NCBI GenBank assembly: GCA_958295955.1
Contig: OY282420.1
Coordinates: forward strand, 2,432,435 to 2,496,434
Direction: 5' to 3'
Length of the DNA: 64,000 bases
DNA from: an uncultured Bryobacterales bacterium
GTDB lineage: Bacteria > Acidobacteriota > Terriglobia > Bryobacterales > UBA6623
Shown: piece after piece, positions 1 to 29,453 of the stretch
Layout: each line of letters starts with the position of its first letter
How positions within the stretch are numbered: the stretch's first letter is position 1
Made by a program: the position numbers and the translations under genes
The notes under the pieces: model-generated
Told to the model about the DNA's origin: nothing
The model's input: only the letters and a program-made list of their open reading frames with translations
The model's database searches: none

Positions 1-268
1 GCGCGACCGTCCGGCGGCAGTGGTCGCGGAATCCATCAGCGATCTTGAAGCCGAGATCGGCCGCGCGCCCGTTGCCGAGCCGCGCCGTTCGCCGCCGATT
101 ATTCGTTCGAACAGCCTCGCGCCCAAGCCGCTGACCGCGGAAGGCGCCGCGCTCGAGCTCGAGGTCAGCGGACGCGATCACATTTCATACCGCGATGCCG
201 ACAGCGGCAAGGTCCATGTCTTGCTGCGCCGCCGGGACGGCGTGCTGGAACTCGTTGAAGGGGAATAG
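1..268 (+). CDS. hpf: Ribosome hibernation promoting factor, long form (C-terminal part)
   Basis: The frame is open from the window edge, so this is the 3' end of a longer gene; the GTG at 20 is probably internal. The last 55 or so residues match the C-terminal domain of long-form HPF/RaiA: a PKPLT entry, a GRDHISYRDADSG stretch and an RRRDG turn before an acidic end. In the family this domain dimerises to join two 70S ribosomes into inactive 100S particles, while the missing N-terminal domain binds the 30S decoding region. rapZ starts 4 bp after the stop, so the two are surely cotranscribed. Identification rests on the C-terminal domain only. Confidence 0.75.
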   Translation, partial: RDRPAAVVAESISDLEAEIGRAPVAEPRRSPPIIRSNSLAPKPLTAEGAALELEVSGRDHISYRDADSGKVHVLLRRRDGVLELVEGE

Positions 269-272
269 CTCC

Positions 273-1169
273 ATGCCTTCCGATGCGCAGTCCGCGGCAG
301 AAAATCCGTCCGCGGCCGTGCGCTTGGTGATCGTCACCGGTTTGAGCGGCTCGGGGAAAGGAACCGTCCTCAATGTATTTGAAGACATGGGCTTCTATAC
401 GGTCGATAATCTTCCGGTCAACTTGATTCCGACGTTCACCGATCTGTGTCAAACTTCGCCCGAGATCTCGCGGGCGGCGCTGGTCATCGATATTCGCGAA
501 GGGGAGGCGCTGAGCCGGTTGCCGCGAATTTACAGTCAGATCGCGACTGAAATTCCGTCGCAGCTTGTCTTTCTGGAAGCAACGGACGACGTGCTGCAGC
601 GCCGGTTCAGCGAGACGCGGCGGCCGCACCCTATGGGCGGCTCCACGGTGCAGGAGAGCATCGCGGAAGAGCGGGAGATGTTAAGCGCGGTTCGCAAACT
701 GGCGGACATCGTCATCGATAGCTCGCGGCACAACATTTACGAATTGCGGCAGAAGATTCGCACGTTGTTCGCGGAAGTCGATACGGCGCCGTCGATGCGC
801 GTCACGGTGGGCAGCTTCGGTTTCAAGCACGGCGTCCCCACGGATGCGGATCTGGTCTTCGACGTGCGCTTTTTGCCCAACCCGCACTACCAGCCGGGCT
901 GCCGTTACTTGACCGGCAAAGATCGTCCGGTGGCCGATTTCGTTGAGAAATTTCCCCAAACGCAGGAGTTCATCGCGCGTGCGGCGGATATGATTTCTTT
1001 TCTTTTGCCGCACTACATCGACGAAGGGAAAAGCTACATCACGATCTACTTCGGCTGCACGGGAGGCCGTCACCGCGCGGTTTTTATCGCCGAGACCATC
1101 GCCGGACATTTAACGGCCAACGGCGGCGAAGTGAAGGTTTTTCACCGCGACATCGAAAAAAGCATGTGA
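273..1169 (+). CDS. rapZ: RapZ family P-loop nucleotide-binding protein
   Basis: 298 residues, the usual RapZ length. A Walker A motif GLSGSGKG lies at residues 23-30 and the family C-terminal signature GCTGGRHRAVFIAE near residue 265. In Enterobacteria RapZ is an RNase E adaptor that targets the GlmZ sRNA and so controls glucosamine-6-phosphate synthase; in other phyla the role is less clear. I chose the ATG at 273 because it sits 4 bp after hpf, has a purine-rich AAGGGGA about 8 nt upstream, and leaves Walker A at the expected distance. In proteobacteria the order is hpf-ptsN-rapZ; here no PTS gene separates the two. Confidence 0.93.
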   Translation: MPSDAQSAAENPSAAVRLVIVTGLSGSGKGTVLNVFEDMGFYTVDNLPVNLIPTFTDLCQTSPEISRAALVIDIREGEALSRLPRIYSQIATEIPSQLVFLEATDDVLQRRFSETRRPHPMGGSTVQESIAEEREMLSAVRKLADIVIDSSRHNIYELRQKIRTLFAEVDTAPSMRVTVGSFGFKHGVPTDADLVFDVRFLPNPHYQPGCRYLTGKDRPVADFVEKFPQTQEFIARAADMISFLLPHYIDEGKSYITIYFGCTGGRHRAVFIAETIAGHLTANGGEVKVFHRDIEKSM

Positions 1170-1190
1170 CGCGGCGCGCTTGCCCGCCCT

Positions 1191-1655
1191 CTACTCTTCC
1201 TCGATCTCGGCGCTGATGGCAATATCGATCGCGTCCCTGACGCTCATTGCCGCAGGGCATTTTACCGGATGGGTGTCGATCGCGCGCTGCGCCCGGTCGC
1301 GCGCGCCGGCGGGAATCTTGAGGTGATAACGCACCCGGATGCGGGTAATGCGCATGATGCCGTCGACATTTTCGACGTCGCCTTCGACCTCGCTCCGAAC
1401 CTTGTCGGGATGGTTCGGAATCTTGCGGACTGCCAGGGCCCCTGACAGAGTGCCGGTCAGTCAACCCCCGACCGCGGCGACGATGTGATCGAGGGTTGCG
1501 GGCAGGTCCCTGGCGGGCTCCATGCCGTAGAAGTGCTTGATGCCGCCGTGGACTCCGAATACGAGCGGTTCCTCGAAGCCTTCGACGTACGCCCGGCGTT
1601 CCGGGGGCTTGTCTTGATGAATCCTGATGCGTGAAGTGTGGACGATTTCTCCCAT
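1191..1655 (-). CDS. OsmC/Ohr-family peroxidase, predicted selenoprotein (TGA = Sec65)
   Basis: Read through an in-frame TGA (1463-1461), this gives one 154-residue protein ending at TAG 1193-1191. Residues 1-64 have the OsmC opening (VFGVHGG, then LDHIVAAVGG). Residue 65 is the TGA, followed directly by LTGTL. In OsmC-like proteins this place is the conserved peroxidatic Cys of the GCLTGTL motif. The second conserved Cys is present as C133 in KCPAA. The reading frame is intact for 90 codons after the TGA, with no other lesion. A hairpin fitting the bacterial SECIS rules lies at 1448-1430. OsmC-like selenoproteins are a known bacterial family, so Sec in place of peroxidatic Cys is the natural reading; a nonsense mutation is the alternative. 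The HAD gene ends 26 bp upstream on the same strand, probably cotranscribed. Expected role: reduction of organic hydroperoxides. No sel genes lie in this window. Confidence 0.85.
1430..1448 (-). promoter_or_regulatory. Candidate bacterial SECIS element
   Basis: Starting 13 nt after the in-frame TGA (1463-1461), CTGTCAGG (1448-1441) pairs with CCTGGCAG (1437-1430): eight consecutive pairs, one of them T-G, closing a GGC loop (1440-1438). Bacterial SECIS hairpins lie within the coding region, with the apical loop roughly 16-37 nt after the UGA and a G in the first two loop positions; this loop is at +21 to +23 and starts with G. A competing shorter helix, CTGAC (1460-1456) with GTCAG, is possible. 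Function as a SelB binding site is inference. Confidence 0.7.
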
Positions 1656-1681
1656 AAAACGATTGTAGCCGTTCCGTCCGC

Positions 1682-2350
1682 TCAAGACACGGCCGGACCG
1701 GTCGATCGGTCGAGCCAACGCGGCAGGCCGGCGACGCTCGCGAATACCGCGGCGGGTTCGTACGGGTCGAAGGCTGCCGCCGGAGTCGTTCCGCTGAGCA
1801 CGGCGGCGAACGGAATCTCCGCGCGGCGGGCGGTCTCCGCGTCCGTAACGCTGTCGCCGACGTAAAGAACCGCTTCGCGGCGCTGCCCCATTCCGGCGGC
1901 CGCGGCGAGCAGGCCCTCCGGCGAGGGCTTGAACTCGCTTACGTCGTCGCCGCCGACGATCGGGTCGAACTGTCCCGCCAGACCGTCGCGTTGCAAAACG
2001 TCCTCGATGCGGCAGCGGAATTTCGTCGACACGATGCCCAGGCGCAAGCCGCGCATCCGCAAGGCGCGGACCGTCTCGCGTACGCAGGGTAGCAGCGTTG
2101 TCCGCGCGACCATGATTCTGTCGGAAAGTTCCCGGAAATAGCGCCGAAATTCCTGCGCGCGCGGGCGCTGACGCTCGCCTGCCAGGCGGACGAGAGTTTC
2201 CTCCAACGAGAGACCGATGGTTGCGCGCACGGCGTCTTCGCCGACCGGCGCGAGGCCCATCCGTTCGAACGCATGAGCCGTGCAGGCGATTACGGCGGGG
2301 GATGAGTCCGCAAGCGTATAGTCGAAGTCGAATACGACCGCCGCCGGCAA
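1682..2350 (-). CDS. HAD-superfamily hydrolase, phosphoglycolate phosphatase-like
   Basis: 222 residues. Motif I is DFDYTLAD with the nucleophile D8 and acid/base D10; an all-helical cap follows; a motif III lysine lies in EFKPSPEG and motif IV is GDSVTDAETA. This is the GmhB/Gph/PpaX type of phosphatase; the real substrate (2-phosphoglycolate, pyrophosphate or a sugar phosphate) cannot be told from the sequence. The start is TTG at 2350 with a GATAAT -10-like box (2362-2357) only 6 nt upstream and no Shine-Dalgarno. It precedes the OsmC selenoprotein gene by 26 bp and probably forms a two-gene operon with it. Confidence 0.82.
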   Translation of the reverse strand: MPAAVVFDFDYTLADSSPAVIACTAHAFERMGLAPVGEDAVRATIGLSLEETLVRLAGERQRPRAQEFRRYFRELSDRIMVARTTLLPCVRETVRALRMRGLRLGIVSTKFRCRIEDVLQRDGLAGQFDPIVGGDDVSEFKPSPEGLLAAAAGMGQRREAVLYVGDSVTDAETARRAEIPFAAVLSGTTPAAAFDPYEPAAVFASVAGLPRWLDRSTGPAVS

Positions 2351-2398
2351 TCCCCATTATCCGCGATCCGCCGGCGCGTCCCCTCTAAACTGAAGCAG
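2351..2398. promoter_or_regulatory. Divergent promoter region, both sides near-leaderless
   Basis: The 48 bp between the divergent HAD and membrane-protein genes hold GATAAT on the minus strand (2362-2357), 6 nt before TTG 2350, and TAAACT on the plus strand (2386-2391), 7 nt before GTG 2399. Neither start has a well-spaced Shine-Dalgarno. No clear -35 is visible. Confidence 0.45.
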
Positions 2399-27842: not shown

Positions 27843-29453
27843 TTGAACCGACCTCACGGCGTGTGCATCCGTCAGACCGAGTTGCCGGGGATTCGGCCGC
27901 TCTTTGCGAGTCTGCTCTATCGGTTCCACGAGGTCGCGGATTTCTACCGTTACCCGCCCGTTCTGGATTCCGCCGAGGCCGCCGCCCGCGAAATTCGGTT
28001 CGACCCCCGACACCGCGCTGCTCTGACGGCCGAGCTGCGGCGCCAGAACGAGGGCTGCGGGCCGGAAACCGCCGCCAATCTGGACCGGCTGGAGAAGCCG
28101 GACACGGTAGTCGTCGCCACCGGCCAGCAAGTCGGACTCTTCGGCGGTCCGGTCTTCGCGCTTTACAAGGCGTTGACGGCGGTCCGGTTCGCGGCGGAAC
28201 TGACCCGGCGCGGAACCCCCGCCGTCCCGGTGTTCTGGCTGGCCACCGAAGACCACGACCTCGCGGAAGTCGATCATGCCTGGGTCTTTTCTCCGGACGG
28301 CGTCCCGGCCAAGCTGCGGGCGGTTACGCAAGGCGCCGCGGGCGCCGCCGTCGGCGCGCACAAGATCGTCGACGCCGACCTGGCCAAGCTCGAGGAGACT
28401 GTCAGCGGGTTCCCTTTCGCCGATGAAGCGGCGGCGTCGGCGCGCGAAGCCTACGCGGACGCCCCCTACTTCGCCGACGCTTTTCGGGCGCTGCTGCGCA
28501 AATTGCTCTGCCGCTTCGGCCTGATTTTTTTGTGCCCCATGCAGCGCGAGATTCGGCGTCTCGCGGCGCCCGTCATCGAGCAGGCGGTCGCGCGCTCCCC
28601 CGAGTTGACGGCAAAGCTGCTGGTCAGAGGACGGCAACTCGAACAGGCGGGCTTCCACCGGCAGGTCCGCGTCGATGCCGAGACGTCGCTGTTTTTCTTG
28701 TTCGAAAACGACGTGCGGGTTGCGCTCAAGAAGCAGGGGGACGCCTATCGGGCGGGGGCGAAGCGTTATACGCACGGCGATCTGCTCGCCAGGCTCCGCG
28801 AAAACCCTTCCGCTTTCTCGCCGAACGCGCTGTTGCGGCCGGTTATGCAAGATTTTCTCCTGCCCACCGCGGCGCTGGTCGGCGGCCCGGCGGAGTTGGC
28901 GTATCTCGGCCAATCGGCCGTTTTGTACGAATCCCTGCTCGGCCGCATGCCGGCGGTCTTGCCGCGCGCGAGTTTCACCGTTCTCGACGGCAGAGCCGCC
29001 AAATTGCTGGACCGTTACCGCCTGACGCCCGCGGAGTGCTTTGTGCCCGCGGCCGATCTCGAAGAGCGCATTGCCGCTTCCCTGGTTCCCCCCGAGTTGC
29101 ACGGCGCGTTCGCCGGGAGCGTGCGGGAAATCGAAACCGCGATGCTGCGCATGGAGCGGCGCCTCTCGAGTTTCGACCCTTCGCTGCATGCGAGCTTTTC
29201 TTTGTCGGCCGGCAAGATTCGCTATCAGCTTGAAAAAATCCAGGCCAAGACCGCGCGCGAAAGCCTGCGCCGGAACGAGACGGCTCAGCGCCACGCCGCC
29301 TACCTCAGCAGTTTCCTCTACCCCAACCGCAGCCTCCAGGAACGGGTTTACGGCATGCTGCCCTTTTTAGCGCAATTCGGCGGGGGCTTCGTCGACCGCA
29401 TCGCCGACGCAATTGCCCCCGATTGCGTCGATCACCAGGTCTTGACACTGTAA
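27843..29453 (+). CDS. bshC: Bacillithiol biosynthesis cysteine-adding enzyme BshC
   Basis: 536 residues, the BshC length. Family landmarks are VVATGQQVGLFGGPVFALYKA, VFWLATEDHDLAEVDHAW (the HxxD-type active-site region), LRPVMQDFLLPTAALVGGPAELAYLGQ and a long C-terminal coiled coil ending FPNRSLQER-like (LYPNRSLQERVYG). BshC adds Cys to GlcN-malate in the last step of bacillithiol formation. bshA and bshB are not in the window. The start is TTG 27843; a TATTCT hexamer lies 42 nt upstream. Bacillithiol would be the natural thiol partner for OsmC/Ohr-type peroxidases (inference). Confidence 0.9.
   Translation: MNRPHGVCIRQTELPGIRPLFASLLYRFHEVADFYRYPPVLDSAEAAAREIRFDPRHRAALTAELRRQNEGCGPETAANLDRLEKPDTVVVATGQQVGLFGGPVFALYKALTAVRFAAELTRRGTPAVPVFWLATEDHDLAEVDHAWVFSPDGVPAKLRAVTQGAAGAAVGAHKIVDADLAKLEETVSGFPFADEAAASAREAYADAPYFADAFRALLRKLLCRFGLIFLCPMQREIRRLAAPVIEQAVARSPELTAKLLVRGRQLEQAGFHRQVRVDAETSLFFLFENDVRVALKKQGDAYRAGAKRYTHGDLLARLRENPSAFSPNALLRPVMQDFLLPTAALVGGPAELAYLGQSAVLYESLLGRMPAVLPRASFTVLDGRAAKLLDRYRLTPAECFVPAADLEERIAASLVPPELHGAFAGSVREIETAMLRMERRLSSFDPSLHASFSLSAGKIRYQLEKIQAKTARESLRRNETAQRHAAYLSSFLYPNRSLQERVYGMLPFLAQFGGGFVDRIADAIAPDCVDHQVLTL

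Follow-up and report, generated by a model that had tools for sequence, protein, structure and literature searches.

An OsmC-family gene of Bryobacterales with an in-frame TGA at the peroxidatic position: a very probable selenoprotein and its relatives

We found that the window, i.e., the whole 64,000-nt stretch of DNA analyzed here, carries on its minus strand an OsmC-family gene with a single in-frame TGA, located exactly at the codon of the peroxidatic cysteine. The TGA is almost certainly translated as selenocysteine (Sec), and the product is very probably a selenoprotein with an OsmC-type redox role. An earlier reading of the same DNA, made from the sequence alone, had proposed such a selenoprotein, and this proposal is now supported by the Sec machinery of the genome, by the presence of TGA in 53/53 related loci and by a SECIS hairpin with signs of purifying selection and covariation. 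Beyond what was recognized in the sequence-only reading, osmC represents a widespread group with Sec as the rule. On balance, we regard this group as an OsmC subfamily of its own, which occurs in at least five phyla and has Cys as a rare exception.

The features of the window referred to below are as follows:

195..1169, plus strand: rapZ, convergent neighbor of osmC (Pfam RapZ domains)
1191..1655, minus strand: OsmC-family gene, a very probable selenoprotein gene (154 aa and TAG stop, TGA read as Sec; supported by the frame, Pfam OsmC match and predicted fold)
1257..1259, minus strand: codon of C133, the second, conserved and putatively resolving Cys, which is part of a CP motif (no variation in the subfamily alignment; falls on the CP of OsmC structures)
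1430..1448, minus strand: predicted bacterial SECIS hairpin with an 8-bp stem (CUGUCAGG / CCUGGCAG) and a 3-nt loop GGC, which starts after 20 nt from the UGA
1461..1463, minus strand: in-frame TGA, the putative Sec codon, residue 65, at the peroxidatic Cys position of OsmC/Ohr (alignment to E. coli OsmC C59)
1682..2350, minus strand: HAD-family phosphatase-like gene, upstream of osmC (Pfam HAD_2, E 2.3e-36)
27843-29453: bshC, bacillithiol synthesis (Pfam, E 1.6e-76)

Reading frame and surroundings of osmC

The minus-strand frame 1655..1191 opens with ATG, contains the single TGA at 1463-1461 and terminates with TAG at 1193-1191. A standard ORF call splits the gene into two wrong pieces, 1461..2357, whose start is out of frame and lies inside the upstream HAD gene, and 1084..1464, which is also out of frame. 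The sequence-only reading had placed the break at the same TGA, and its coordinates and residue numbers proved correct. When translated through the TGA, the protein matches Pfam OsmC (PF02566) with 42 bits (cut-off 27.5; E 1.3e-10) over residues 55-147, thus spanning the TGA. A PF02566 search of the whole genome returned 0 matches; as it missed the window osmC too, the absence of an OsmC paralogue is not thereby shown.

The HAD gene ends 26 nt before the osmC start, and the two genes may be co-transcribed. Comparison of neighbors in the relatives did not find the HAD gene beside osmC, while rapZ was kept there only within Bryobacterales; apart from it, no recurring neighborhood that could give a clue to the function was found. 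Searches of the window for RNA families (Rfam) and tRNAs (ARAGORN) found none, and no further convincing candidate for a TGA read-through gene emerged when the window was scanned for codon-position bias. As for bshC, which the sequence-only reading had set beside osmC in the context of hydroperoxide defence, the gene is indeed present in the window, but it lies 26 kb apart from osmC and we found no evidence of a link between them. Its presence suggests bacillithiol as a low-molecular-weight thiol of the host.

Selenium machinery and the SECIS element

The host genome is 4.58 Mb in size and its near relatives are Bryobacterales (Acidobacteriota). It encodes a tRNA-Sec with the anticodon TCA (75.9 bits versus a cut-off of 47), SelA (518 bits), SelB (376 bits) and SelD (296 bits). 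The SelD domain (C1:3288338-3289255 and upstream) is the C-terminal portion of an open frame of 765 aa, the N-terminal half of which is presumably a NADH dehydrogenase-type flavoprotein, to judge by its sequence and by SelD fusions already known; selA lies ~4 kb from selD. In addition, a gene for the formate dehydrogenase alpha subunit (C1:246614-248485, minus strand) contains one in-frame TGA in the context NRTUHAPSVAG, where formate dehydrogenases classically carry Sec. The N-terminal part of the formate dehydrogenase model has a short match of its own at C1:243758-243916. Taken together, the tRNA-Sec, SelA, SelB, SelD and the formate dehydrogenase TGA indicate that the organism is equipped for making selenoproteins, for which at least two of its genes are candidates. 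The sequence-only reading had named a genome without the Sec machinery as an argument against itself; with selA, selB, selC and selD all present, that objection fails.

Co-occurrence of osmC with SelA points in the same direction. SelA was detected in 15/15 carriers from the order and in 15/15 distant carriers tested, i.e., in 30/30 carriers in all. As SelA is common in the order, the association there does not reach significance by itself (Fisher p 0.097). One carrier with SelA, in turn, belongs to a genus in which six of the eight sampled genomes do not have it.

The window hairpin fits the bacterial SECIS (bSECIS) model as given in PMC13188914. The features that the hairpins of the subfamily share with bSECIS elements are mostly a 3-nt loop starting with G, a stem of 7-9 bp, a loop located 20-26 nt after the UGA and a folding energy of < -7.5 kcal/mol. 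With an energy limit of -7.5 kcal/mol, 67/69 distinct UGA genes have such a hairpin versus 0/7 Cys OsmC genes. Considered alone, however, the window hairpin has an unremarkable folding energy (z -0.25 versus dinucleotide shuffles), 3.5% of synonymous recodings give an equally good fold, and when longer upstream sequence is included a competing fold has a lower energy. Since the folding energy of the window stretch alone gives no signal, we used synonymous-site conservation and covariation instead.

Across 11 window-clade orthologues, synonymous changes at amino-acid-invariant codons affect 4/15 codons at 62-79 versus 75/86 elsewhere (Fisher p = 3.7e-6), with zero synonymous changes at codons 64-75. 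A 34-nt block that starts at the TGA and contains the hairpin CUGUCAGG-GGC-CCUGGCAG is identical across all 11. In most relatives the hairpin is found in another register, 26 nt after the UGA, while it is placed at ~23 nt in one Chloroflexota group and at 20 nt in the window clade; the three registers look as if the hairpin had moved within the coding sequence. For the 39 sequences in the 26-nt register, 90.7% of cells are paired and the covariation score is 0.298 versus 0.199 for shuffled alignments, a value matched in 0/500 shuffles; four pairs show double-sided changes, and versions of the hairpin slid along the alignment all score far lower. The strongest pair links the third base of Ala73 (GCA/GCG, a synonymous difference) to the identity of residue 76, Val or Ala, with 14 A-T and 27 G-C combinations (counts that ignore kinship). 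Such pairing cannot easily be explained by selection at the protein level.

The TGA codon across relatives and its alternative explanations

The codon of residue 65 is TGA in 53/53 related loci, all of which also keep the second Cys. The loci comprise 14 genes from genomes of the same order and 39 loci from a species collection, two partly overlapping sets. The peptide patterns used for the collection loci exclude the Sec position, so the TGA was not selected for by the search. Seven more distant OsmC paralogues of the same order have TGC or TGT at this codon. As the same TGA recurs in 53 loci and the frame is conserved as protein on both sides of it, its position reflects more than chance. 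The relatives were also inspected for random stops and frameshifts, which the sequence-only reading had expected to find if the gene were decaying; they show the same single TGA in frames that are otherwise intact.

The pattern was also seen in samples of two phyla. In a sample of 347 Acidobacteriota genomes, 29/29 full-length subfamily hits contain one TGA (the codon position was checked in those fetched), and a wide gap in score separates them from ordinary OsmC genes. In 400 Chloroflexota genomes, one TGA was found in 36/38 full-length hits, with the position checked for 10. The two exceptions are L135 with TGC (Cys) and L134 with TGG (Trp); the TGG gene has a weak SECIS-like hairpin of -3.0 kcal/mol. 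The two scans together thus give ~65 full-length UGA members versus one Cys and one Trp member, and restriction of the subfamily to Sec, when tested in this way, is not absolute. In the tree, the Sec proteins, L135 and L134 form a clade apart from the Cys paralogues (100/100), which includes members from Acidobacteriota, Chloroflexota, Bacillota, Armatimonadota and one deltaproteobacterial genome placed in Myxococcota. L135 and L134 are nested within the Sec clade on long branches, as conversion of Sec to Cys, or its loss, would give. One of the carriers is Bacillus sp. FJAT-27225, whose genome does not come from a metagenome and which is thus probably cultured. Two genomes possess two Sec osmC copies each, ~20 kb apart in G698 (C1:7666395 and C1:7645725) and on contigs C134 and C149 in G736.

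The split made by an ordinary ORF caller is what a nonsense mutation or a sequencing error in a Cys-type osmC, i.e., a pseudogene, would also produce. Yet, the identical TGA occurs in dozens of independently assembled genomes of five phyla, the frame is otherwise intact and its synonymous sites are under selection, which makes such an origin scarcely credible; conservation of the TGA across phyla, without further disabling changes in the relatives, refutes it. For a genome-wide reassignment of TGA to Trp or Cys we found no support, and we regard it as vanishingly improbable: TGA terminates the upstream HAD gene, and osmC itself in several orthologues, and the genome encodes a TCA tRNA-Sec and SelB. 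The ordinary TGA stops in the same and neighboring genes refute this explanation, and both a pseudogene and a reassigned code are practically excluded. The UGA might instead act as a programmed stop or read-through switch, yielding mainly a 64-residue product with some other amino acid inserted at low frequency. The identity of the inserted amino acid is not readable from sequence, which leaves room for such a switch, but the location of the UGA at the catalytic Cys, the covarying bSECIS features and the presence of SelA in every carrier tested render it very improbable. Sec insertion thus remains the preferred explanation of the TGA.

Predicted fold, likely function and relation to known OsmC proteins

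With Cys in place of Sec, the AlphaFold2 model of the protein has a mean pLDDT of 96.8, and its top PDB fold matches are all OsmC/Ohr proteins, with Z from 15.2 to ~11. No PDB entry was matched when phmmer was run with the single protein, whereas a profile search gave matches. In the profile alignment to OsmC structures, residue 65 corresponds to C59 of E. coli OsmC (1qwi) and C133 falls on the conserved CP motif; both U65 and C133 are invariant in the subfamily. The placing of residue 65 at the peroxidatic Cys, as well as the second Cys in an intact remainder of the protein, had been noted from the sequence alone, and both agree with the alignment and with conservation of the frame on either side of the TGA.

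Based on the fold and these residues, the protein is most likely a selenenyl-sulfide organic-hydroperoxide reductase, with peroxide as its presumed substrate. We propose that UGA codon 65 would be recoded as Sec by Sec-tRNA(Sec) and SelB, guided by the SECIS hairpin 13-31 nt downstream of the UGA within the coding sequence; without selenium, translation would end after 64 residues. In the mature protein, the U65 selenolate would attack the peroxide, giving a selenenic acid, which C133 would resolve to a selenenyl-sulfide, and a cellular dithiol would then re-reduce the latter. For Ohr, dihydrolipoamide is the known electron donor. We consider this U65-C133 selenenyl-sulfide cycle likely.

The selenoprotein might also serve in another redox role or in the handling of sulfur or selenium, roles that YhfA-like OsmC proteins may have too. 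The curated OsmC/Ohr models are distant from the subfamily (31.6 bits and below versus cut-offs near 86-89), osmC has no conserved operon partner, and the residues flanking Sec differ from those of Ohr/OsmC, all of which leave some weight on such a role. Against it, the U65 and C133 positions and the OsmC fold are all kept, and a Sec in the place of the peroxidatic Cys is in keeping with peroxide chemistry. We therefore consider another role unlikely, although far from negligible, and favor the hydroperoxide reductase.

Many Acidobacteriota and Chloroflexota possess this selenium-dependent protein, probably a peroxidase. Automatic annotation splits osmC, so the protein is likely to escape notice or to be entered as fragments. 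For selenium in these lineages, the subfamily means one more redox role, and it also offers a natural set for asking why the OsmC active site keeps Sec and how a SECIS element moves in a coding sequence. The finding extends known biology rather than introducing a new principle.

OsmC-like selenoproteins with Sec in place of Cys are already known, as the sequence-only reading had held. The first report, from the Sargasso Sea, dates from 2005 and gives the motif UxxT (PMC1088965); a second followed in 2008 (PMC2398784), and two reviews, of 2022 and 2026, list them as well (PMC9312934; PMC13188914). The marine proteins are catalogued as UxxT, and in PMC9312934 as COG1765 (YhfA); MCS5647933.1 is an example of the published UxxT proteins. 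As described there, the marine OsmC-like selenoprotein (COG1765/PF02566) and the present one share the fold family, Sec for the catalytic Cys and a bacterial SECIS just downstream of the UGA. The subfamily described here is set apart by its motif U-x-x-G-T (U-L-T-G-T, or U-M-Y-G-T in Chloroflexota): an invariant Gly occupies the third position after Sec, where UxxT has Thr, and Thr comes next. In the text of these four papers, the passages on OsmC make no mention of carriers of the UxxT family in Acidobacteriota or Chloroflexota, and we found no description of a U-x-x-G-T subfamily in them.

The NCBIfam model NF041052 (OsmC_like_Se, "OsmC-related (seleno)protein") likewise describes OsmC-related proteins, and its name records Sec members. 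The similarity is weak: the window protein scores 19.5 bits and its Sec relatives at most 28, whereas the curated cut-off is 95 bits; every scanned Sec protein of the subfamily either stays far under this value or is not reported at all.

Compared with the OsmC/Ohr reductases, represented by E. coli OsmC (1qwi) and Xylella Ohr (1zb9), the window protein is alike in the predicted fold, in the CP motif at the second Cys and in the spacing of the two catalytic positions, which are ~66-68 residues apart. It differs in having Sec, as the TGA almost certainly specifies, where these enzymes have the peroxidatic Cys, and structural alignments give 9-18% identity. Moreover, its sequence falls outside the curated models for both groups, with 21.5 bits versus a cut-off of 85.8 for OsmC (TIGR03562) and no reported score for Ohr (TIGR03561; cut-off 88.85 bits). 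As for the bSECIS elements, the hairpins of the subfamily resemble them in loop, stem, distance from the UGA and folding energy, as given above, yet they differ in occupying three registers, at about 20, 23 and 26 nt, among clades of one osmC family.
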